Below are positions 11,885-57,550 of a DNA stretch of 64,000 bases, piece after piece; within the stretch, counting starts at the first letter, position 1, and the number at the start of each line of letters is the position of its first letter. The DNA lies in the NCBI GenBank assembly GCA_913019975.1, contig CAJWBH010000018.1, positions 1-64,000 of the forward strand. Reading direction: 5' to 3'. The position numbers and the translations under genes were made by a program. Under the pieces are notes generated by a model. It was not told where the DNA came from, made no database searches, and saw nothing but the letters and a program-made list of their open reading frames with translations. Origin of the DNA: Thalassolituus maritimus. Its GTDB lineage: Bacteria; Pseudomonadota; Gammaproteobacteria; Pseudomonadales; Oceanobacteraceae.

Positions 11885-13041
11885 TTCGCGCGCTCTTCCA
11901 GAATCGCTACTGCTGGCAATACTTTGCCTTCTACGAATTCAAGGAATGCACCACCACCAGTCGAGATGTAAGACACCTGCTCAGCAATGTTGTACTTGTC
12001 CACGGCTGCCAGGGTGTCACCGCCACCCGCGATGGAGAAGGAGTCAGAGGCAGCGATTGCCAGAGACAGAGCTTTGGTGCCTTCGCCGAACTGATCAAAT
12101 TCGAATACACCCACTGGGCCGTTCCAGATGATGGTTTTCGCTTCTTTCAGCTGTTCTGCCAGTGCCTTGGCTGAGTCTGGGCCGATGTCGAAGATCATGT
12201 CATCAGCTTCAACGTCGTCAGCAGACTTCAGAGTCGCTGCTGCGGTTTCAGAGAATTCTTTACCACACACAACGTCGGTTGGTACTGGAATAGAAACCTT
12301 TTCCATCAGCTTTTTCGCCGCTGGAATCAGGTCTTCTTCGTACAGTGACTTACCAACTGGCTTGCCTGCTGCTGCCAGGAAGGTATTAGCAATACCGCCA
12401 CCTACGATGATCTGGTCACAGATGTCGGACAGACTTTCGAGTACTTCAAGTTTGGTGGACACTTTAGAGCCACCAACGATGGCGACCAGCGGACGAGCAG
12501 GCTTATCCAGAGCCTTACCGAGTGCGTCGAGTTCAGCGGCCAGTAGAGGCCCTGCGCAAGCAACGGGTGCAAACTTAGCGACACCGTGGGTAGACGCCTG
12601 AGCGCGGTGCGCGGTACCGAAGGCGTCCATCACGAAAATATCGCACAGTTCAGCGTAGGCTTTGGCCAATTCGTCTTCGTCTTTCTTTTCGCCTTTGTTA
12701 AAGCGCACGTTGTCGAGCAGTGCAAGCTCACCATCGGCCAGTTCGATGCCAGCGCGGAAGTCTTTCACAACGTTGACGTCGCGGCCCAGCAGGCCAGCGA
12801 GGTGATCAGCCACAGGCTGCATGGAGAACTCTTCGGCGTATTCGCCTTCGGTCGGACGACCCAGGTGAGACATCACAATGACTTTGGCACCGGCTTCAAG
12901 CGCGTGCTGAATGGTTGGCAGTGACGCACGGATACGCACATCAGAAGTCACCTTGCCGTCTTTTACCGGCACGTTCAGGTCTTCGCGGATCAGAACCCGT
13001 TTTCCTTTCAGGTCCAGGTCGGTCATTTTCAAAACAGTCAT
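11881..13041 (-). CDS. pgk: Phosphoglycerate kinase
   Basis: Glycolytic and gluconeogenic enzyme that transfers phosphate between 1,3-bisphosphoglycerate and ADP. The 386-residue product has [12 protein letters not shown] at the N-terminus, the substrate motif MSHLGRP, and the nucleotide-site region ending in [14 protein letters not shown]. The frame opens at 13047, but the second ATG at 13041 has GGGA at good spacing and matches E. coli. The upstream 340 bp contains palindromes. The stop codon overlaps the GTG of a small lipoprotein gene. Confidence 0.97.
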
Positions 13042-13047
13042 AGTCAT

Positions 13048-13389
13048 GTCCCAGATAATGGAGTCTTTTAAATTCTTCAGCGTGATAGTGCATAGCCATG
13101 CTGAGACGCGGTGGATACATCCCTGTACGCTCGGCTGTCGCGTCCATGCGACAGACGCTCAGCCTGACTCCGCACTACCCCACTTCAAACGGACACCGCG
13201 CGGCGGTCAAAGCGGAGCGATGCCAATAAGTTGGTTAGAAATCGCGCGGGAGTATACCAGCATGAACAGTGCGTTTCATCGGCACACACATGACAATCAC
13301 CGCCCAGAACTGACCTTTACCTTGTTTACCTCGGTCAGTGCCGATAGCCTGCTTACCCTTTTGTGTAATTACAGTTCAAAGGCTTTCTG
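13048..13389. other. Divergent pgk/ABC-exporter intergenic region with nested palindromes
   Basis: No convincing gene. It must hold the pgk promoter on one strand and the ABC exporter promoter on the other. CTGTCGC/GCGACAG (13135-13154, 6-nt loop) sits inside GCTGAG/CTCAGC (13100-13163), so a nested hairpin could form about 60-120 bases before pgk. Confidence 0.5.
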
Positions 13390-15129
13390 ATGCTGCGCTG
13401 GCTCTGGCAATTTATCCGCCCTTACAAACTGCGTTTAACCATTGCAGTGATCGCACTGGTGACTACGGCTGGCCTGACGCTCAGCCTTGGTCAGGGCGTT
13501 CGCCTGATGATCGATCAGGGGTTTGCGGCCAGTTCAGTCGAAGGCCTGAAAGACGCGGTGATCTTTTTCGCCGTATTGGTGGTTGCAGTGTCAGTCGGGG
13601 CTTACTTCCGGTTCTATATGGTGTCCTGGCTTGGCGAGCGGGTGGTCGCTGACATCCGTAAAACCCTCTACCGACACTTAGTCACTCTGCCGCCTTCCTT
13701 CTTTGAAGATAACCTGTCTGGCGAAATCCAGAGCAGGATCACTACCGATACTGCGCTCCTGCAAACCGTGATTGGTTCATCGTTTTCCTTTGCTCTGCGC
13801 AATGCCCTCACGTTTGTGGGCGGCATTACCCTGATGTTTATCACCAACCTCAAGCTCAGCCTGATCGTTTTAGTGGCGGTGCCTCTGGTGGTATTTCCCA
13901 TGGTGTTCTTCGGGCGCAAAGTGAAAAAACTCTCACGCGAAAGTCAGGACAAAGTTGCCAGCGTCGGCGCCTGGGCGGGTGAAAGTCTGCAACACATCAA
14001 AGTTGTGCAGGCCTTTACCCGTGAAGACAGCGTGAATAAACAGTTTGGCGACGCGGCGGAATCCGCCTTCGATGTGGCCTTGCTGCGCATTCGCCAACGC
14101 GCGTTTATGATCGCGCTGGTGATGATTCTGGTGATGGGGTCGGTCGCAGGCATGTTGTACGTCGGTGGTCACGATGTGATTACCGGCAGCCTGAGTGGCG
14201 GCGATCTGGCCGCCTTTGTGTTTTACGCCATCATGGTCGGCGGCTCGCTGGCCGCGGTGACCGAAGTCTACGGAGAAGTTCAACGCGCGGCAGGCGCAGC
14301 AGAGCGTATTCGTGAACTGATGGCGGCGGAGTCTGATATACGATCACCCGCCGACACTATGACGCCTCCGGTAACGCACAGCGATACTCAAATTGCGTTT
14401 CAAGAGGTCAGTTACCACTATCCTTCCCGCCCGGACAAAGCAGCCTTAACAGAACTCAATCTCGAGGTACGCGCTGGCGAGCGCATTGCCTTGGTCGGGC
14501 CATCTGGGGCAGGCAAATCCACCCTGTTCGATATGCTGCTGCGCTTTCGTGATCCGCAACAAGGGCAAATTCTGGTAGAGGGCACACCATTACCTGAATG
14601 GCAGTTACAGAGCCTGCGCAGTCAGTTTGCTCTGGTGCCTCAACAGCCGGTACTGTTCAGCACAAACGTGCTGGAAAACCTGCGCTACGGCCGACCTGAC
14701 GCCTCCGATGCGGATATTCTCGCTGCCGCCAAAGCGGCGCATGCCGATGAATTTATTCAGCAGCTGCCGGAACAATACGAGTCGTATCTGGGAGAAGGCG
14801 GCGTGAAACTGTCAGGGGGTCAGAAGCAACGTCTGGCCATCGCCCGTGCGATTCTGCACGATCCGAAAATCCTTCTGCTTGATGAAGCCACCAGCGCCTT
14901 AGACGCCCAGAGCGAATACCTTGTGCAACAGGCGTTAGATAAACTGATGCAGAATCGAACAAGCTTTGTGATCGCGCATCGTCTGTCGACCATTAAACAC
15001 GTCGACCGCATCGTTGTGATGGATCAAGGGCGTATAGTAGCTGTCGGCACGCACGATGAACTACTTGAACGCTCGCCCTTGTATAAGCGGCTGGCCGAGT
15101 TGCAGTTTGGGGAAGAGAAAAGCGCTTAA
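13390..15129 (+). CDS. MsbA-like ABC exporter (fused membrane and ATPase domains)
   Basis: A 579-residue half-transporter that would act as a homodimer. The N-terminal half (about 1-310) has six membrane helices. The ATPase has Walker A GPSGAGKST, signature LSGGQKQR, Walker B ILLLDEATSALD and the H-loop IAHRLST. It belongs to the broad MsbA/lipid-A-exporter-like group, but it is not clearly MsbA itself, and its substrate is unknown. AAAGG precedes the ATG by seven bases. It is inserted, in opposite orientation, between pgk and epd, and its stop abuts the epd stop with no spacer. Confidence 0.88.
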   Translation: MLRWLWQFIRPYKLRLTIAVIALVTTAGLTLSLGQGVRLMIDQGFAASSVEGLKDAVIFFAVLVVAVSVGAYFRFYMVSWLGERVVADIRKTLYRHLVTLPPSFFEDNLSGEIQSRITTDTALLQTVIGSSFSFALRNALTFVGGITLMFITNLKLSLIVLVAVPLVVFPMVFFGRKVKKLSRESQDKVASVGAWAGESLQHIKVVQAFTREDSVNKQFGDAAESAFDVALLRIRQRAFMIALVMILVMGSVAGMLYVGGHDVITGSLSGGDLAAFVFYAIMVGGSLAAVTEVYGEVQRAAGAAERIRELMAAESDIRSPADTMTPPVTHSDTQIAFQEVSYHYPSRPDKAALTELNLEVRAGERIALVGPSGAGKSTLFDMLLRFRDPQQGQILVEGTPLPEWQLQSLRSQFALVPQQPVLFSTNVLENLRYGRPDASDADILAAAKAAHADEFIQQLPEQYESYLGEGGVKLSGGQKQRLAIARAILHDPKILLLDEATSALDAQSEYLVQQALDKLMQNRTSFVIAHRLSTIKHVDRIVVMDQGRIVAVGTHDELLERSPLYKRLAELQFGEEKSA

Positions 15130-16149
15130 TCAGGCCTTGATCACAATCATCTCACAGGCCGTATCCAGCATACGGTTAGCAAAGCCCCACTCGTTATCAA
15201 ACCAGACCAACAGTTTGAGCAAGCGTCCGCCGCTGACCCGGGTCTGAGTCGCATCCACAATGGCCGAACGCGGATCATGATTAAAATCGATAGAGGCGTG
15301 GGCTTCACGGGTCAGCCCCAGAATACCGTCGAACCTCTGATTAGCCGCTGTCGCCAGTAACTGATTCACCGCTTCGGTATCTGTCGCTTTGTTGAGTTGC
15401 AACGTGATATCCAACGCCGAGACATTGATGGTAGGCACACGCACGTGCAGGCTCTCTATTTTGCCGGCCAGTTGCGGCATCAGGCGCTCGATCCCCGCGG
15501 GTAACCCGGTATCGACAGGAATAATGCTCTGCACAGATGATCGGGTACGACGCAGGTCTGAGTGGTAGGCATCAATCACTGGCTGATCATTCATCGCGGA
15601 GTGGATGGTGGTCGTGACCCCGGCTTCAATGCCATAGGCCTGATCGATCAATGTCAGTACCGGAATCAGAGCATTGGTCGAGCAGGAACCGCTAGAAACA
15701 ATGCGCTGATCCGCCGCCAGTGAGTCATGGTTGTGACCATAAATGATGGTGTTATCGACTGCGCTGTCTGCCGGGTTCGAAATCAGTACTTTCTTCGCAC
15801 CGCGGCTGAGGTGCAGCTCGGCATCTTCGCGTGAGCGGATCTGGCCGCTGCATTCCAGCACCAGGTCCACGTCCAGCGCAGCCCAATCCAGTTCTGCCGG
15901 ATCACTGATATGACGAACACAGATACGATCGCCGTTGACCATCAGGTGCTGCTGATCAGCGATGCTGACGGTGCCATTGAAGCGACCGTGCGTACTGTCG
16001 TAACGCAGCATGTAGCTCAGCGACTCAATGTCTGCCAGCTCGTTGATCGCGACCACTTCGATGTCCTGCCGGTAACCGTTTTCATAAAGCGCACGCAGCA
16101 CACAGCGGCCGATACGTCCAAAACCGTTGATGGCGATACGGGTTGTCAT
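15130..16149 (-). CDS. epd: Erythrose-4-phosphate dehydrogenase
   Basis: NAD-dependent GAPDH homologue that oxidises erythrose 4-phosphate for pyridoxal phosphate synthesis. The 339-residue protein has INGFGRIGRCVLRALYENG, VVAINELAD, active-site SGSCSTNAL and the Epd-like stretches TTTIHSAMNDQPVIDAYH and TQTRVSGGRLLK. These favour Epd over GapA. The epd-pgk-fba gene set supports this, although an exporter gene separates epd from pgk. A dual or GAPDH role cannot be excluded from sequence alone. Confidence 0.88.
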   Translation of the reverse strand: MTTRIAINGFGRIGRCVLRALYENGYRQDIEVVAINELADIESLSYMLRYDSTHGRFNGTVSIADQQHLMVNGDRICVRHISDPAELDWAALDVDLVLECSGQIRSREDAELHLSRGAKKVLISNPADSAVDNTIIYGHNHDSLAADQRIVSSGSCSTNALIPVLTLIDQAYGIEAGVTTTIHSAMNDQPVIDAYHSDLRRTRSSVQSIIPVDTGLPAGIERLMPQLAGKIESLHVRVPTINVSALDITLQLNKATDTEAVNQLLATAANQRFDGILGLTREAHASIDFNHDPRSAIVDATQTRVSGGRLLKLLVWFDNEWGFANRMLDTACEMIVIKA

Positions 16150-49246: not shown

Positions 49247-50017
49247 ATGACTAAAAAAGCGAAACTCACCTGTCGTTTCTTTCCTATCAACGAAATAAAC
49301 ATCGCTAAGCTTGTCGAAATGCACAGCATTTTCACCCGTTTCTACGAGAACGCCGATCTCACAACCTTTATTAAGGATATGAGTGAAAAGAAAGGCGTCA
49401 TGATCCTGAAGAACAAGACCACCGGGAAAATCGTGGGATTCAGTACTTACAATGAAGTCGAATTGATGCACCAGGGCAAGAAAGCCATTGGCGTATTCAC
49501 TGGCGATACTATTGTTGAGCCTGAATTCTGGGGCAACAAAACATTGCATACTGCGTTCGCAATGAAAATGCTGAAAGCGAAGATGTTACGCCCTACCACG
49601 CCGATGTTCTGGTTACTGATTTCGAAGGGTTACAAAACCTATCTGCTGATGGCCAATAACTTTCAACGCTTCTATCCACGCCACGATCACCACGACCATG
49701 AGATGGAAGGTCTGATGCAGCAATACTGCCAGAAGCTGTACCCGACTTACTATAAAGAAGAAGAGAAGATCCTCGACTTCGGCGAGGGCTACCATGCGCT
49801 GAAAGAAGATGTCGCGGACATCACGCCTCGCATGCGTGCCAGCAACTCATCCATCCGTTTCTTTGAGGAGCGCAATCCTGAATGGCGTCGTGGCACTGAG
49901 CTGCCCTGCGTTGGTGAAATCGGCCTTTCGACGATCGGGATTTTCTTCAAGAAACTGATGCGCAGCACCTTCGGGCGGCGTCGTCCAGCCCGTAAGAACC
50001 TTCGTCAGGCGGCATAA
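49247..50017 (+). CDS. GNAT-like acyltransferase-type protein, first gene of the GH3 cluster
   Basis: A 256-residue protein. Residues about 40-125 look GNAT-like: KNKTTGKIVGFSTYNEVEL, then GVFTGDTIVEPEFWGNKTLH in place of the acetyl-CoA loop. A middle part has many aromatic residues and a histidine patch (RHDHHDHE), and the tail is strongly basic (RRRPARKNLRQ). I do not recognise a named family. GAGG precedes the ATG. It leads a run of five same-strand genes. An acyl- or acetyltransferase role is plausible but unproven. Confidence 0.62.
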   Translation: MTKKAKLTCRFFPINEINIAKLVEMHSIFTRFYENADLTTFIKDMSEKKGVMILKNKTTGKIVGFSTYNEVELMHQGKKAIGVFTGDTIVEPEFWGNKTLHTAFAMKMLKAKMLRPTTPMFWLLISKGYKTYLLMANNFQRFYPRHDHHDHEMEGLMQQYCQKLYPTYYKEEEKILDFGEGYHALKEDVADITPRMRASNSSIRFFEERNPEWRRGTELPCVGEIGLSTIGIFFKKLMRSTFGRRRPARKNLRQAA

Positions 50018-50026
50018 CACCGCCTG
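50006..50026 (+). repeat. Hairpin over a stop codon, CAGGCGG-N7-CCGCCTG
   Basis: A perfect 7-bp stem with a 7-nt loop that contains the TAA stop of the preceding gene. No T run follows. It may protect the mRNA end or slow ribosomes. Confidence 0.5.
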
Positions 50027-50299
50027 CAGCTGGCCTGAAGTGTGACATAGTACGTAATATGCGCCAAAGACACACTCAGACCAGCTGGGGCAATTCAGTT
50101 GCCTAAGACTTTATGGTTAAATCGCAGGCCCGTTCTGATCTCCGCACCTGGCGAAGGAAGCACGGATAATAATAAACAATAGTGCCTTTCATCTAATTGT
50201 CAGATTCCGGTTTTTTGATACCGGCCAGTGCTGCCGGGCTCAGAGCCTGACACCGATGAAAGTCTTCACCACACAAAGAAAGATACAGGAGCCTGTCAG

Positions 50300-51964
50300 A
50301 TGTCTGCTCTGAAGAACCTGACCACGTCGCTGCTTCATTTTGCATCATCCACGCTGACCCGTAAGGGCGCACGAAAATTCATTGACGCCAGTTATGACGT
50401 TGAGAGCGTTCAGCGTTCAATTCTTAGCGACACCCTGAACATGGTTGTGGGTGCGGAGTCCGCCGTTAAGCATAGCCTGCGTAAGGATATGACGGTCGAG
50501 GAGTTCCGTCAGCAGGTGCCCATCACAGACTACAACTACTGGCACGACATGATTGTCGAGCAGCAGAAGAGCGGTAAGCCGATGCTGACGACCTCAAGCT
50601 GTGATCGCTACCAGCCAACATCAGGCTCCACCTCGAAAATCAAATGGATTCCATACACGCGTCCATTTCTGGATCAGGCCGATGAAGCCATCAGCCCATG
50701 GATGTCTGACCTGTACGCCAACTTCCCGGGGATAAAGAAAGGCCGTCACTACTGGTCTCTGTCCTGGGTGCCAAGTGACCTGCGCGACCAGGTCAGTGAA
50801 AGTATCAACGACGACATGCAACTGCTGCCTTGGTGGAAGCGACTGTTTATGGCCGGCACCATGGCGGTACCCGAAGGCGTATCTCTGGCTGAAAGCTCAG
50901 ACGAGTCATTCTTCGCGACGTCCTGTTATCTGGTTGCCTGTACTGATCTTTCCTTTATGTCGGTCTGGAGCCCAACCTTCGCCATGAGCCTGTTGCAGGT
51001 TATGCAGGAACACCGCGAGAAAATCGCCGAAGTGCTCGAAACTGGCCGATGGGTAGCTCCGTTCGATAGCCTGAAAAATATCGAACCTCCGAAGAATGAG
51101 GCTGCCGCCGCTTATATGCGAAAGTGGGACGGAGAAATCACTCCGGCCTTCACCAAAGCTATCTGGCCAAACCTGGCACTGATCAGCTCATGGGACACCT
51201 CTTCATCGAAAGGCTGGGCAGAGAAACTGCAGGCGATATTCCCGCACAGCGGCTTCCAGGGCAAAGGCCTGTTCGCAACCGAAGGTGTTGTGACCTTCCC
51301 AATGGGTGACGAGTATCCACTGGCGTTCACCAGCCACTTCTATGAGTTTGAAGACCTCGATACCAATGAGATTCTGTGCAGCTGGGAACTGAAGAAAGAC
51401 ATGCGCGTGCGGCCAATCATCACGACCGGTAATGGCCTCCTACGTTATCAGACCAAAGATATGCTGCTCGTCACTGACTTTATTAATCAATGTCCGTGCC
51501 TGCGCTTTATCAGCCGTATTGACGGTGTTGATATGGTCGGCGAAAAATTATCGCCAGATGCAGCGGTTAAACTGATCGATCACTTCAGTGGCAACATGGG
51601 GCTGTCCCCTGTGACCCTGATCGCTATTCCACAGTCAGACCTGCGCGCTAAGCCCGTCTATGGCCTGCTGTGTTCGGGCAGTGCAGATGCTATCGCTGTA
51701 AGGGAACCTCTTGGCGCGCAACTGGAAGAGCAACTGAACCAGCACTTCCATTACAAACTTGCACGTGAGCTGGGGCAGCTGGGCCATGCAGAAATGCTGA
51801 TCGTGCCTGACGCGATGGAAGTGTATACCGAACACAAAATTGCCGGTGGAATGGTCGCAGGCAACATTAAGATTGAACCGCTCGCACTCTGGCAGAACGA
51901 TCAGATGCCAGGCGCCGTCAGCGACATACTGAGAAACTCAAAACCGGCGGAGGCCGATGCATGA
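50300..51964 (+). CDS. GH3-family acyl-acid amido synthetase
   Basis: A 554-residue member of the GH3 (auxin-responsive promoter) adenylating superfamily, which joins carboxylic acids to amino acids through an acyl-adenylate. Motif 1 is TSGSTSKIKWIPYT, motif 2 FATEGVVTFPMG, and the region LRYQTKDMLLV then FISRIDGVDMVGEKLS holds the catalytic Asp and hinge. Substrates are unknown in bacteria of this type. The ATG at 50300 follows AGGAG; an earlier ATG at 50228 is less likely. Its stop overlaps the next gene (ATGA), so the two are co-translated. Confidence 0.85.
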   Translation: MSALKNLTTSLLHFASSTLTRKGARKFIDASYDVESVQRSILSDTLNMVVGAESAVKHSLRKDMTVEEFRQQVPITDYNYWHDMIVEQQKSGKPMLTTSSCDRYQPTSGSTSKIKWIPYTRPFLDQADEAISPWMSDLYANFPGIKKGRHYWSLSWVPSDLRDQVSESINDDMQLLPWWKRLFMAGTMAVPEGVSLAESSDESFFATSCYLVACTDLSFMSVWSPTFAMSLLQVMQEHREKIAEVLETGRWVAPFDSLKNIEPPKNEAAAAYMRKWDGEITPAFTKAIWPNLALISSWDTSSSKGWAEKLQAIFPHSGFQGKGLFATEGVVTFPMGDEYPLAFTSHFYEFEDLDTNEILCSWELKKDMRVRPIITTGNGLLRYQTKDMLLVTDFINQCPCLRFISRIDGVDMVGEKLSPDAAVKLIDHFSGNMGLSPVTLIAIPQSDLRAKPVYGLLCSGSADAIAVREPLGAQLEEQLNQHFHYKLARELGQLGHAEMLIVPDAMEVYTEHKIAGGMVAGNIKIEPLALWQNDQMPGAVSDILRNSKPAEADA

Positions 51965-53061
51965 GTCAGCGCTTTATCATTCGCCCTACCATCGAAGAGG
52001 ATGCACCGGGGCTGAGTGAATTGCTGTCTGATACGCCACAGGAAGGCAGTATCCAGCTGAACTTTGAACGCGAGCCAAACTACTTCCATGCGACTGACGT
52101 AGGCACAACGACCCGCGACCTGTGGGTCATGGAAGACACCGAACAACATCGCATTGCCGGAGCCTTCAGCATGGGCTTCCGTGATGTGTTTGAAAATGGC
52201 CAGCGTAAATCCATGCGCTACGGCAGTGACCTGCGTATCCACCGTGATTATCAGGGTGGACGCACGCTGCTGCGTTTTTTTAAAACCGTCAAAAGCCTTA
52301 TTGGCAGTGATAATTACCAGACCGTCATTCTCGAAGAGAACAAAGCATCTCTCGATACCGTTGGCGGTAACCGCATTAAGGTACAGCCAACATACAATGC
52401 GTTTCGTCGTCATCGCACCAATATGATCGAACTGCATCGACGCGAGAAACATGTCATCAATCTTAATATCCGTCGTGCAACGAGCGCTGATATCCCAACG
52501 ATGCAGGCATTTTTTGATGCCAATGCCCCGAAAAAACAGTTCTACCCATGCTACGACTTCTCCAGAGTAGAAACCGGAGACAGTTACTACCGCGACATTA
52601 AACTAAACGACTTCTTGCTGGCGTTTGAAGGCGATGAATTGGTGGGAATGACCGGATTCTGGGATCAGAAGGCCTTTAAACAGACGCGAATCGCGGGATA
52701 TTCTAAGGCGATTCAGTACGCACGTCCGTTTTACAACGCATACACAAAGATCGCGGGAGGGTTGTCACTCCCACCTGCGGGCTCATTGACCAGCTATATT
52801 TATCTGCACTGTAATGTATTTAAAGACAATCGCAGTGATATCTTTGCAGATCTTCTCGCATACGCACGCAAGGAACTGAAAGATAGTGAGTATGATGCCT
52901 TAGTCGTTGGCTTCGATACGGAAGACCCTTTGCAAAAGGTAACCGATAAATACAAAAAAGAAGAATTATTCAGCCTTCACTTTATATGTGGCTACGGTGA
53001 CGACCCAACGCCCGACCTGAACCCTGAAGGGCTGATGTATCTCGAAACTGCGCGCCTGTAG
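51961..53061 (+). CDS. Double-GNAT-like protein coupled to GH3
   Basis: A 366-residue protein with two GNAT-like halves. The first (about 5-150) has IRPTIEEDAPGLSELL and SDLRIHRDYQGGRTLLRFF, a recognisable acetyl-CoA loop. The second (about 165-330) starts NIRRATSADIPTMQAFFD and is more divergent. It begins within the GH3 stop codon, so stoichiometric production is likely. It may supply or modify the acyl or amine partner of the GH3 enzyme; this is inference. Confidence 0.72.
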   Translation: MSQRFIIRPTIEEDAPGLSELLSDTPQEGSIQLNFEREPNYFHATDVGTTTRDLWVMEDTEQHRIAGAFSMGFRDVFENGQRKSMRYGSDLRIHRDYQGGRTLLRFFKTVKSLIGSDNYQTVILEENKASLDTVGGNRIKVQPTYNAFRRHRTNMIELHRREKHVINLNIRRATSADIPTMQAFFDANAPKKQFYPCYDFSRVETGDSYYRDIKLNDFLLAFEGDELVGMTGFWDQKAFKQTRIAGYSKAIQYARPFYNAYTKIAGGLSLPPAGSLTSYIYLHCNVFKDNRSDIFADLLAYARKELKDSEYDALVVGFDTEDPLQKVTDKYKKEELFSLHFICGYGDDPTPDLNPEGLMYLETARL

Positions 53062-53128
53062 CAAAAAATATTATCTGCCTCAGTAACACCGGCTGCCCGC
53101 GCGCTCGCTATTTGCAACAGAGAGCAAT

Positions 53129-54268
53129 ATGAAACAGTTGAAATTTTTTATCATCGGCCTGGTTATTCTCGCTGCTGCCGGATACGCCGGATACACCATG
53201 TACATCAATGCGCCTAAACCTCAGACTCAGGAAGTTAAGGTCGCAATTCCTCAGGTTCCGTACAAAGAGGTGCGTATCTCCACGCAGTCGATCCCTATTT
53301 TCAGCCGCGGACGGGTCTCGGCTTCACGCGTCCATAAGATAGCCAGTCAGGTATCTGGCCTGGTGACGGATATTGCTCCGGAGCTGAAAAAAGGCGAAAT
53401 CGTGAATGCTGACCAGTTGCTCGTTCAGATCGACGAACAGCCTCTTATTCTTGATATAGCCCAGAAGAAAGCGCAACTGACCCAAACAAAGTTACGGCTG
53501 GAAGAAACCGAAGCAAATGCACGCGTAGCTCGTCGTCAGGCAGGACGTAACGCATCAGACTATGCGCGCTTCGTACCTCAGCTTGCCTACGCAAACTCAC
53601 AGGTGGAAGCCGCAGAGGCCGCCCTGCAATACGCCTATGACCAGTTAGAAAATACTAAAATCAGCTCGCCGATCGAAGGCAAAGTCGTTGATGTATTCAT
53701 TAACGAGGGTGACCTGGTACAGACCGGCTCACCGGTTGCCGTTCTTTACGGTATGGATCAGGCTGAAATTCGTCTGCCATTAAACGATGCCGAACTCATG
53801 ATCATCGGTGTCGAAGAAAACACCAGCACTGAGAATGGGCCAAGCTTTATGCCGCAGGTAACTCTGCGTGACTATGAGAGTGGCGATGAATGGAGCGGCT
53901 ATATCGTACGCACCGACGGTGAACGCAGTGCAAACCAGCTCCTCTATATCATCGCTCAGGTCAACGGCGATGAAATGTACAGCAATACCGGTCGCTATCT
54001 CGTACCAGGCTCCTTCCTTGAAGCTGAAATCCGCGGCCAGGAAATTGAAAATATGCGTATCCTACCGCGAGAGGTCATCCTCTCTGGTGATGCCATCTGG
54101 ATGATTAACGCAGACAATACGATTCAGCGCCAGCCTGTGACCATCCGCTATCGCGGCAAGGAATTCGCCTATATTGATACTGCGCTGCCACCGGGCACCC
54201 GGGTAGTCGCTGGTAACTTTAACCGTCTTGTCGAAGGCATGACCGTCGAACCGATTCGCAAGAAGTAA
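53129..54268 (+). CDS. RND efflux periplasmic adaptor (MFP)
   Basis: A 379-residue membrane-fusion protein. It has an N-terminal anchor (about 5-25, no lipobox), a lipoyl domain split around a helical hairpin (about 70-195) and beta-barrel parts after that. VHKIASQVSGLVTDIAPELKKG and ISSPIEGKVVDVFINEGDLV are typical. It links the RND pump to an outer-membrane channel, not encoded here. It follows the double-GNAT gene by 67 bp and precedes the pump by 18. Confidence 0.93.
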   Translation: MKQLKFFIIGLVILAAAGYAGYTMYINAPKPQTQEVKVAIPQVPYKEVRISTQSIPIFSRGRVSASRVHKIASQVSGLVTDIAPELKKGEIVNADQLLVQIDEQPLILDIAQKKAQLTQTKLRLEETEANARVARRQAGRNASDYARFVPQLAYANSQVEAAEAALQYAYDQLENTKISSPIEGKVVDVFINEGDLVQTGSPVAVLYGMDQAEIRLPLNDAELMIIGVEENTSTENGPSFMPQVTLRDYESGDEWSGYIVRTDGERSANQLLYIIAQVNGDEMYSNTGRYLVPGSFLEAEIRGQEIENMRILPREVILSGDAIWMINADNTIQRQPVTIRYRGKEFAYIDTALPPGTRVVAGNFNRLVEGMTVEPIRKK

Positions 54269-54286
54269 CCTGCCGGAGGCTGACTT

Positions 54287-57200
54287 ATGAAACAGATCAT
54301 CCGTTGGTTTGCGGAGAACACCGTTGCTGCCAATCTGTTGATGTTCTGCCTGATTGCCCTTGGCTTGATGGCAGTACCTGAAACGCGCAAAGAACTTATC
54401 CCCAATGTCACCCTCGACCGCCTTAGCATTCAGACTAAACTGCCGGGTGGTAATGTTGAAACCATTGAAAACAGTGTCTGTAAGGCCATTGAGAACCGCA
54501 TTTACGATATTCAGGGTACGCAGAACCTGACCTCCTTTGCCTATGATGGCTTATGTAGCATGACGGTCGACATCGCCGACGGCTACGAAACTGATAAGAT
54601 TTCTGACGAAATATCCCGTCGAATTAATGAAGAGGGCCTGCTCCCTGACGACGCCGAAACACCGACGTTACAGGAGCTGTCTGTTAAAAACCGCGTTGCT
54701 AAATTAATTATTTACGGCAACACCAGTTACGCCGCTCTCGCAGAAACATCGCGTGAAATACGCAATGACCTGATGGACATGCCAGACATCAGCGTGATTG
54801 AGCTGCAGGATATGTCGAAGTCTGAAATCCGGATCGAAGTACCTGCTCACAACCTTGAAAAGTATGACCTAACATTCGACGATATTTCCGGAATGATCCG
54901 TCAGCAGACGGGCTTCCTACCCGGTGGTGTGCTGGAAACTCAGGACGGCGATATTCTGATTACCAGTGATGCGTACAAAGACTCGGCTGAAGCCTATCGC
55001 AATATCGTAATCTACTCAGATTCAACCGGTGCAGAGATTCTGCTACGCGATCTCGCGATCATCACAGATACCCGCTATGTCAGCGAGACGAACGCCAGCT
55101 TTGATGGCACGCCATCCGCCTCGATCGATATTTATCGGGTTGGCGATCAGAGCATTATGGACATCGCCGATGACCTGCACACCTATGTAGATGCCCTACG
55201 CTTACCTGAGACCATCAAAACACACGTCTGGCAGGATGAATCAAAGCACCTGCGCGAACGTATCAGCATGCTGCTGGAGAACGCACTTGCGGGTCTCGTG
55301 CTGCTCTTTATCACCTTGCTTCTCTTCCTGAATGGCCGTCTGTCGTTCTGGGTGAGTATGGGTATTCCGGTATCTTTCTTCGGTGCTCTGTTTGCGATGC
55401 CTATGTACGACGTCTCCATCAATGCGGTGTCATTGTTTGGTTTTATTCTCGTACTCGGGATCGTGGTCGATGATGCGGTTGTGGTCGCAGAGGCGATCCA
55501 CAACCGCAATGAAAAAGGCATTTATGGTACCGAGGCAGCACTTCAGGGAGCTTTTGAGGTTTATAAGCCGATTCTGTTCGCGGTAGTTACTACGGCCATT
55601 GCGTTTATTCCTTTGATCGGCCTGCCCGGCCCTGAAGGAAAAATGATGCAGGCGATTCCTATTGTTGTTATCGCCACGCTTATTTTCTCGGTGATTGAGT
55701 CCTTCCTGATTCTGCCGGCTCACTTGTCTCATGCGCAGAAAGTAAACGTTAAAAAAGAGCCGTCAACACTCGAAAAGATTCAATCAAAGTTTGATGGCGC
55801 CCTGCAGAGCTTTATGCGCACGATTTATCTGCCGTCACTGCGTGGTGCACTTCAGGCGAAAGGCATCATCATCCTGATATTCTCCATCACCTTCACCCTG
55901 ATGCTGGTCATGATGCTTACCGGGTGGATCAAGTCTTCTCTGTTTACACCGGTCGAAGCTGATTCGGTCGTAGCACGACTGGTTCTGCCAGAGGGCTCCC
56001 CGCGGGAAAAAACCGAAATGGCTGTTGAGCGCCTGACCAATGCAGCAGAGCTTCTGAAACACCGCTACGAAATGGAAGGTGTCGCAACCATTGACCATAT
56101 CTATGCGGTCATCGGGCCTAACGAATCCAAGAGTAATATGAAGAGCAGCCAGGACCGTGATCACCTGGCCAATATTACGCTGGAGTTGGTTTCTGACAGA
56201 ACCAGCCGCATCAGTGGCCGCGAGATTATTTCCAGCTGGCGTAATATTGCTGGAGATATCCCCGGCGTCAGCCAGCTGAGCTTCAGCGCCAGTCTTAACC
56301 CAGCCAGGCCCGATATTCAGATCGAGCTGTCAGCCAACGACCAGGAAGATCTGAAAGAAGCAGCCGATCAGTTAATGGTTCATCTGAAAGGGTTCGCGGG
56401 TGCATACGATGTGCGTCATACGCAGGAGAACACCAAACAGCAGGCCGATATTATTCTCCGCGACAATGCCAGCTCGCTGGGCCTGACGCAGCAAACCGTT
56501 GTTGCCCAGATCAACCAGGCCTTCCAGGGCAAGGTTGTTCAGAATGTACAGACCCGCGACGATGAAATCGAGGTTTGGCTGGGCCTGCCTGACGATGAGC
56601 GCGATTCTTCATGGCACCTCGAAAACATGCACGTGAAGTACGCTCCGGGGCAATATGTTCCTTTATCTGCGATCGCGGATATCGTGTATCAGGACGCACC
56701 GACACACATTAAGCGCAACAACCGCAAGCGCGTGGTCACGGTGACTTCCTTCATCGATACCGGCCGCAACTCGGTACAGAATGTTCAGCGTGTAGTTGAG
56801 AACGAAATACTGCCATCGCTGGTGCGTCAGTACCCAGGAATGGATTGGGCGAGAGGCGGTCAGCAGCGCGACCTGAGTAAATTTATGACGACCCTGTTCC
56901 AGTATTACATGGTCGCTGTATTGGCTATGTATCTGTTGCTGGCGGTTCTGTTCAAGTCGTACATGCAGCCTTTTATTATTATTTATGCCATCCCCTTCGG
57001 CATCATGGGCTCAGTCATTGGCCACCAGCTGTTCGGTATGGTCATCACATCCTGGTCATACATTGGCATGGTGGCTGTCAGTGGCGTTGTGGTGAACGAT
57101 AACCTGGTATTGATGGATTACATCAATAACCGCAGGGAAAAAGGAGCCAGTACATACGATGCCGTGATTGAAGCCGGTATCGCCCGTTTCCGGCCGATTC

Positions 57201-57550
57201 TTCTGACCTCACTGACCACGTTTGTGGGCCTGATACCCTTGATCTCTGAAACCAGCCTGCAGGCTCAGTTCCTGATTCCAATGGCTATTTCACTGGCGTT
57301 CGGCGTACTTTTCGCAACACTCGTCAGCCTCTTGTTGGTGCCATGTACTTATGTGTTTCTGGACGACATTCAGGTCGCCTTCCGCCGCGCCTTCAGTAGT
57401 GGTGGCGAAGAGAATGTGACCGTTGAGGATGCCTATGATGAAGGCTTCAAACAAGGTAATTCCAAAGCCCGCAAGGTAAATCCATATAGCTCAGATCTTC
57501 TCGCCGCGAGTTGGGATGCAGGGTACCAGGATGGGACCGAGGCCCGCTGA
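54287..57550 (+). CDS. RND-family efflux permease with RMF-like C-terminal tail
   Basis: A 1087-residue proton-driven pump of the AcrB/MdtB superfamily with twelve membrane helices and two large periplasmic loops. TM4 has GIVVDDAVVVAEAIHNRNEKG (read as GIVVDDAVVVAEAI plus NRNEKG) with the proton-relay Asp pair, and TM10-11 has GVVVNDNLVLMDYINNRREKG (GVVVNDNLVLMDYI). The last 39 residues are unusual: AYDEGFKQG, then NPYSSDLL, then SWDAGYQDG, a spacing like ribosome modulation factor. Substrate unknown; the GH3 neighbours suggest an amphipathic acid or its amide. Confidence 0.93.
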   Translation: MKQIIRWFAENTVAANLLMFCLIALGLMAVPETRKELIPNVTLDRLSIQTKLPGGNVETIENSVCKAIENRIYDIQGTQNLTSFAYDGLCSMTVDIADGYETDKISDEISRRINEEGLLPDDAETPTLQELSVKNRVAKLIIYGNTSYAALAETSREIRNDLMDMPDISVIELQDMSKSEIRIEVPAHNLEKYDLTFDDISGMIRQQTGFLPGGVLETQDGDILITSDAYKDSAEAYRNIVIYSDSTGAEILLRDLAIITDTRYVSETNASFDGTPSASIDIYRVGDQSIMDIADDLHTYVDALRLPETIKTHVWQDESKHLRERISMLLENALAGLVLLFITLLLFLNGRLSFWVSMGIPVSFFGALFAMPMYDVSINAVSLFGFILVLGIVVDDAVVVAEAIHNRNEKGIYGTEAALQGAFEVYKPILFAVVTTAIAFIPLIGLPGPEGKMMQAIPIVVIATLIFSVIESFLILPAHLSHAQKVNVKKEPSTLEKIQSKFDGALQSFMRTIYLPSLRGALQAKGIIILIFSITFTLMLVMMLTGWIKSSLFTPVEADSVVARLVLPEGSPREKTEMAVERLTNAAELLKHRYEMEGVATIDHIYAVIGPNESKSNMKSSQDRDHLANITLELVSDRTSRISGREIISSWRNIAGDIPGVSQLSFSASLNPARPDIQIELSANDQEDLKEAADQLMVHLKGFAGAYDVRHTQENTKQQADIILRDNASSLGLTQQTVVAQINQAFQGKVVQNVQTRDDEIEVWLGLPDDERDSSWHLENMHVKYAPGQYVPLSAIADIVYQDAPTHIKRNNRKRVVTVTSFIDTGRNSVQNVQRVVENEILPSLVRQYPGMDWARGGQQRDLSKFMTTLFQYYMVAVLAMYLLLAVLFKSYMQPFIIIYAIPFGIMGSVIGHQLFGMVITSWSYIGMVAVSGVVVNDNLVLMDYINNRREKGASTYDAVIEAGIARFRPILLTSLTTFVGLIPLISETSLQAQFLIPMAISLAFGVLFATLVSLLLVPCTYVFLDDIQVAFRRAFSSGGEENVTVEDAYDEGFKQGNSKARKVNPYSSDLLAASWDAGYQDGTEAR

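Follow-up and report, generated by a model that had tools for sequence, protein, structure and literature searches.

A GH3 amido synthetase with two GNAT-like partners and exchangeable exporters: a candidate pathway for an exported acyl amide in Thalassolituus maritimus and other proteobacteria

Described GH3, condensation-type and RND systems

Plant GH3 enzymes conjugate hormones and acids and are not known to belong to an export operon with several acyltransferases. Here we analyze a 64,000-nt stretch of a Thalassolituus maritimus genome (assembly GCA_913019975.1, contig CAJWBH010000018.1, positions 1 to 64,000; hereafter, the window), in which a GH3 acyl-acid amido synthetase is encoded together with two GNAT-like proteins (gnat1 and gnat2) and the adaptor and pump of an RND exporter. 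A bacterial GH3 enzyme, OlsH, has been described in the planctomycete Singulisphaera acidiphila, where it joins a free fatty acid to ornithine, yielding N-acyl-ornithine, and is reported to require neither coenzyme A nor a carrier protein (PMC12493201). The OlsH/OlsI pathway is similar to the window locus in using a bacterial GH3 as the ATP-dependent amide-forming step and in that one further acyltransferase acts on the product (PMC12493201). However, the window GH3 belongs to a different subfamily: it scores only 15.1 bits against the OlsH family (NF052613), for which the cut-off is 620, and membership in that family is ruled out. Furthermore, the partner of OlsH is an alpha/beta hydrolase, OlsI, as opposed to the GNAT and condensation-type partners found here, and the portion of the paper considered here names no exporter for that pathway (PMC12493201). 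Among the five window proteins, Pfam recognizes no alpha/beta hydrolase, although the genome as a whole was not searched for OlsI. A literature search, which left preprints and most subscription journals outside its scope, returned no description of the present cluster and a single bacterial GH3 pathway, that of OlsH (PMC12493201). The original prediction that no bacterial system of this composition has been described therefore agrees with the literature searched, whereas bacterial GH3 chemistry as such is already known.

The similarity of the window GH3 to plant enzymes, such as AtGH3.15, JAR1 and GH3.12, is evident from a PDB profile search, in which all 10 sequences matched at E≤0.01 are plant GH3s (best match 6avh, E 3.5e-21), and from nucleotide-binding motifs recognizable by eye. 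In many relatives of the cluster, a sixth protein is encoded, which resembles condensation-type proteins of non-ribosomal peptide synthetases (NRPSs), such as AzeD (8s6l) and the Cy domain 5t3e, in its predicted fold and HxxxDG motif. Unlike the NRPS domains, it is a stand-alone protein of ~320 aa, and none of the five members scanned matches a Pfam family over the cut-off. The export components are similar to RND pumps of the HAE1 group (AcrB/MdtBC type), with the window pump exceeding the ACR_tran cut-off and the adaptor that of RND_mfp, but in contrast to the named RND pumps, the window pump stays below the NCBIfam cut-offs and carries a C-terminal tail resembling ribosome modulation factor (RMF). 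No outer-membrane channel is encoded among the five genes; such a gene was not sought genome-wide. On balance, we favor the interpretation that the five genes represent one biosynthesis-and-export unit, namely, a pathway that would operate without NRPSs to make and export an acyl amide, which is probably lipid-like.

A core trio conserved across proteobacteria

The distribution of the cluster was assessed by scanning named genomes with a profile built from clustered GH3s. Of the 164 relatives confirmed, the 80 best were used (the 80 named loci); they describe this GH3 subfamily rather than all bacterial GH3s. Among these loci, 78 have gnat1 and 79 have gnat2 (overlap filtering lowers the counts to 73 and 76, respectively; the unfiltered counts are used here). 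The exceptions include locus L119, where gnat1 is absent and the gnat2 score is weak; L098 has its gnat2 on the other strand. Core hosts comprise Thalassolituus, Oleispira, Bermanella, Bacterioplanes, Exilibacterium, Moritella, Alcanivorax, Alloalcanivorax, Marinobacter, Pseudomonas, Aquabacterium and others, with the closest named relative of the window GH3 found in T. maritimus (L046, 99%). Closer to the window, PF03321 was found in 24 of 93 related genomes, the window genome included, and 20 regions were fetched out of the 25 GH3 matches among them. GH3, gnat2, adaptor and pump occur together in 18 of these regions, 16 of which also have gnat1. The two remaining regions are L041, which encodes gnat1 and GH3 shortly before the contig ends, and L045, which contains a different GH3 of a relative, without this neighbourhood. 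Moreover, in a sample of 369 genomes of the class, 10 match the GH3 profile (E≤1e-30) and eight the gnat2 profile (E≤1e-15); all eight fall within the 10, the two genes lying within about 3 kb of each other on one contig. The corresponding hypergeometric probability is 6e-15, or 2e-13 without the window genome, for genomes that are not independent by descent. The five-gene neighbourhood noticed in the window, thus, recurs elsewhere, with a near-invariant trio of gnat1, GH3 and gnat2; it is not due to chance but represents a real, widespread cluster family in many proteobacteria.

The three core genes are also tightly spaced. Of 77 loci measured, 43 show an overlap between GH3 and gnat2, which amounts to 4 bp in 33 of them, and gnat1 and GH3 overlap or are at most 30 bp apart in 71 of 76. 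All five loci with a wider gnat1–GH3 gap belong to the clade of the window itself, where the gap spans 282 bp (50018–50299) and may hold an extra promoter. Start codons for these measurements were picked by script, and the 76 and 77 pairs leave out three L121 proteins with ambiguous letters and the L064 gnat1, which has no start at the contig end, although both cases were seen in the presence scan. The window is part of contig C18, and PF03321 is matched once in the whole genome, which measures 3.49 Mb. In the window, gnat1 (256 aa) occupies positions 49247–50017, GH3 (554 aa) 50300–51964 and gnat2 (366 aa) 51961–53061, all on the + strand. The start of GH3 was taken to be the ATG at 50300, although the list of open reading frames (ORFs) has a longer GTG frame beginning at 50228. 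As the original prediction had it, all five genes are on the same strand, GH3 and gnat2 share a 4-bp ATGA overlap, and the adaptor and pump genes follow closely, starting at 53129 and 54287.

The GH3 assignment is firm, with the N-terminal, middle and C-terminal domains (PF03321, PF23571 and PF23572) scoring 138.1, 56.4 and 27.1 bits, respectively, against a Pfam cut-off of 23.6 for each. Nucleotide-binding motifs I (T107, G109, K115), II (T327, E328) and III (G379, R382, Y383, D387), the equivalence of which to the published motifs was judged by eye, are identical in all 87 GH3 sequences compared, as are K416 and K524. Given this near-invariance of the motif positions, the GH3 is likely an active adenylating enzyme.

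By contrast to GH3, neither gnat1 nor gnat2 matches a Pfam or NCBIfam family over the cut-off. Sequence searches of PDB were uninformative for both gnat1 and the sixth protein, and their structures were therefore predicted. The AlphaFold2 model of gnat1 (pLDDT, predicted local distance difference test score, 87.6) has 275 Foldseek matches in PDB at E≤0.001; the best matches are GNAT acetyltransferases (lowest E 2.1e-6), and the 50 listed are mostly of this kind, with N-myristoyltransferases also among them. The query TM-scores are 0.32–0.41, and about half of the model is aligned. The protein consists of an N-terminal GNAT core followed by a C-terminal extension of ~100 aa. Thus, gnat1 is predicted to adopt the GNAT fold and is a putative N-acyltransferase. 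The N-terminal half of gnat2 matches the GNAT protein 4ag7 over positions 4–108 in a profile search (E 0.0026) and aligns with gnat1 with an hhalign probability of 50.6, whereas the affinity of the C-terminal half, with a weak Pfam match to Acetyltransf_3 (E 0.08), is uncertain. The gene had been read as a double GNAT; at least its N-terminal half does appear GNAT-like, but a duplication is unsupported, as the two halves do not match each other (hhalign probability 3.7).

Exporters are exchanged around the core

The window adaptor, a periplasmic membrane fusion protein (53129–54268, + strand), matches TIGR01730 with 120.3 bits (cut-off 94.9) and, in Pfam, an HlyD-type family (HlyD_3) over the cut-off; the HAE1-type inner-membrane pump (54287–57550, + strand) scores 507.2 bits against PF00873, also over the cut-off. 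The RND and GH3 identities originally proposed from the bare sequence are, thus, borne out by family models. So is a terminator at the end of the cluster: the segment 57560–57612, which separates the pump gene from a convergent gene for a 224-aa protein, is predicted to fold at −24.6 kcal/mol as an intrinsic terminator of bidirectional form, its T-run pairing with an A-rich arm, though the site is only weak in a pattern scan.

In the 80 named loci, some exporters were labelled from Pfam scans, and the others were assigned by their similarity to those scanned. RND genes adjoin the core in 46 loci from several families (the pair is inverted in L104, L105 and L108). HlyD and/or ABC genes take this place in six loci, all from the Aquabacterium group, HlyD with MFS in two, both from Pseudomonas, and an MMPL-type exporter in one gammaproteobacterial locus (L067). 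An opposite-strand ORF separates core and exporter in L089, and in L066 only HlyD is seen before the contig ends. Mapped on a quick GH3 tree with long branches, on which L098, L100, L114, L118, L119 and the distant loci were left unlabelled, these states imply at least seven changes, with the lack of an exporter counted as one state. Such exchange of exporters around a constant core supports a function in biosynthesis plus export.

The pump itself ends in a tail (about residues 1047–1086; 57425–57547, + strand), which matches the RMF family (PF04957) with 27.4 bits in the Pfam scan, just under the cut-off of 27.9, and with 33.2 bits, over the cut-off, in the genome search; one further RMF match exists elsewhere in the genome. 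A tail motif, defined in this analysis from the sequences, is present in 31 of 47 RND ORFs of related loci, a set that includes one ORF in L065 other than the pump of the cluster and one truncated ORF (L117). Of ten tails scanned, seven matched RMF, three of them over the cut-off, and three did not, so that RMF homology beyond the matching tails is suggestive only.

A stand-alone condensation-like acyltransferase and other neighbours

The gene for the sixth protein follows gnat2 in 34 of the 46 RND-bearing loci and is found in 36 of the 80 loci overall, being located upstream in L098 and cut by the contig end in L114. The model of the L052 protein (pLDDT 92.8) matches condensation-type, cyclisation and epimerisation domains of NRPSs, with AzeD as the best match (E 3.2e-10), and the His-x3-Asp-Gly signature is invariant in 26 sequences, so that the protein, as judged from this relative's copy, is predicted to have a condensation-type fold. 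The window has no sixth gene, but an intact frame is present in the same genome on contig C9 (L137:7923–8891) and retains, by eye, the motif HADADG. Among the 93 relatives, 18 of the 19 core genomes have a member of the sixth-gene family, as compared to 1 of 74 others, and the sole non-core match (G008) is partial, scores 80.8 bits and lies near a contig end. Six relatives from the same genus (G001–G006) also have no linked sixth gene. Simple loss was ruled out by the trans matches in the window genome and in these six, although that in G005 is much weaker (120.9 bits). Simple relocation was ruled out as well: G007 carries both a linked and a trans copy, and G002 and G003 each have two neighbouring trans copies. 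We infer that the trans gene would stand in for the linked one. The sixth acyltransferase gene, the variety of exporters and the RMF-like pump tail all go beyond the original prediction.

Several further observations concern these acyltransferases. In Moritella (L062, L063 and L065, at about 12923–15468), the sixth protein and the RND adaptor are encoded in one open frame of ~800 aa, an apparent acyltransferase–adaptor fusion; in the single member scanned, Pfam recovers the HlyD portion. In eight loci (L052, L053, L054, L058 and L062–L065) from Oleispira, Bermanella, Moritella and a Hahellaceae metagenome-assembled genome, the pump is followed by a further protein of ~410 aa with an HHxxxDG motif (by eye) and a PVDMR-like motif and, in the one member scanned, no Pfam match; this protein is likely another acyltransferase of the condensation type. 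A short-chain dehydrogenase/reductase (SDR; L137:725–1534) encoded close to the trans sixth gene of the window genome is 44% identical to the SDR of L098 (8384–9151), the frame of which overlaps that of the sixth gene, and is possibly a pathway member. The link to TonB/PnuC-like neighbours of the trans gene was dropped, these genes resembling, by sequence, those for vitamin uptake. Finally, 21 of the 80 loci, nearly all from Alcanivoracaceae, have a divergent AraC-type gene (label checked by Pfam for one member) upstream of the GH3 frame, at a distance of about 2 kb.

Proposed pathway and alternatives

Under the scheme that we favor, GH3 would use ATP to activate a free carboxylic acid as an adenylate and join it to an amine or amino acid, and one or both GNAT-fold proteins would transfer acyl groups to the same scaffold. 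In many relatives, the stand-alone HxxxDG acyltransferase would also acylate the scaffold, whereas in the window genome the paralogue on the other contig may do so in trans. Export of the small acylated amide would then proceed via the RND adaptor and pump, joined by a TolC-type channel whose gene would lie at another locus. The general mode, an amide made and then exported, is likely, and the partnership of GNAT-type and condensation-type proteins points to an amide with one or more acyl groups; the order of reactions, the substrates, the product, the pump cargo and the TolC partner are what we infer. The fusion of a fatty acid and an amino acid by OlsH counts in favor of an acyl amide (PMC12493201), and this precedent, along with the exporter types and the habits of the hosts, is the basis for proposing a lipid-like product. 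The original prediction is, thus, partly supported: the exporter exchange speaks for biosynthesis plus export, whereas the chemistry originally proposed, formation of an acyl-amino acid or neutralization of an acid, is conjectural.

Several observations weigh against this scheme. No linked exporter was recognized in 25 of the 80 loci and, therefore, exporter linkage is not universal; 20 of these loci belong to the Aquabacterium group, two are odd (L098, L119) and in three (L100, L114 and L118) the contig ends within 1.6 kb of the GH3 frame. Two relatives (L030 and L032) have no gnat1 beside GH3, and one (G091) has a core with RND but no match to the sixth gene. The trans sixth gene is a paralogue, because both trans and linked copies are present in G007. 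Furthermore, the window genome contains one match to the OlsB-family domain Acetyltransf_5 (PF13444), so that ornithine-type lipids could be explained without invoking a GH3. In eight distant loci (L173 and L181–L187), GH3 is present in all and gnat2 in seven, but gnat1 in only five, not being seen in L173, which starts inside GH3, L182 and L185, and no exporter was recognized among the scanned proteins. These loci may make other products, or the trio may be a general module. The proteins scanned next to the distant cores include Rieske oxygenases, fatty-acid desaturases, FG-GAP/UnbV, SnoaL-like and B12-binding radical SAM proteins, which suggests that the distant GH3 cores belong to larger related clusters. 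Differing sets of such neighbours, including FG-GAP/UnbV-RnfD-like proteins, are seen in L181–L185, L187, L041 and L119.

The alternative that fares best, though we regard it as doubtful, is detoxification or overflow, whereby GH3 would conjugate surplus or toxic acids, such as fatty or aromatic acids from hydrocarbons, to an amino acid and the pump would export the waste. Plant GH3s inactivate acids in a similar manner, and many of the core hosts come from genera whose members are known to use hydrocarbons. Moreover, an AlkB-like protein (E≤1e-60), searched for with a query chosen among nine PF00487 matches by the motif NYIEHYG, which we take to mark AlkB, is found in 49 of the 93 relatives, namely, in 18 of 19 core genomes as compared to 31 of 74 others, and within the family in 16 of 17 as compared to 15 of 27 (Fisher p 0.007); the association is not corrected for descent, and a hydrocarbon link of the cluster is a lead only. 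However, waste disposal leaves two GNAT-like proteins and a condensation-type acyltransferase unexplained, along with the further HHxxxDG protein in eight loci. Less probable still is an aminolipid destined for the cell's own envelope, as with OlsH/OlsI (PMC12493201), in which case the RND pump would move the lipid to the outer leaflet or the outer membrane. The MMPL-type exporter in L067 and the fatty-acid desaturases near the core in L183 would fit such a role, but the window GH3 is far below the OlsH cut-off, Pfam finds no alpha/beta hydrolase among the five proteins, the genome already has an OlsB-family protein, and HlyD with MFS in the two Pseudomonas loci would, in our judgement, better suit a soluble product. 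Finally, a general multidrug pump that merely adjoins an unrelated biosynthetic trio is highly improbable: the 20 Aquabacterium-group loci with gnat1, GH3 and gnat2 but no recognized exporter would agree with it, whereas the adjacency of RND to the core in several families at short spacings, the Moritella frame that joins the sixth protein to the adaptor and the occupation of the same position by other exporter families all speak against it.

Implications

A bolder extension of the biosynthesis-and-export reading, which we put forward as a speculation that could well prove wrong, is that the family is a new NRPS-independent pathway class, in which the near-invariant trio is combined with interchangeable condensation-type acyltransferases, tailoring enzymes and four exporter families (RND-HAE1, MMPL, MFS and ABC). 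In marine oil-associated bacteria, the pathway would make a secreted acyl-amide amphiphile aiding growth on hydrocarbons, and the RMF-like tail of the pump would either tie export to the ribosome or growth state or dock the acyltransferases. The near-constant trio together with the exporter exchange may offer a handle on clusters that genome miners keyed to NRPSs and polyketide synthases may miss. If correct, the proposed pathway, in which a bacterial GH3 acts alongside GNAT and condensation-type proteins, would widen the known routes of amide formation in bacteria. Because named Thalassolituus, Alcanivorax, Marinobacter, Moritella, Aquabacterium and Pseudomonas strains carry the core, they could reveal a new class of secreted metabolites.

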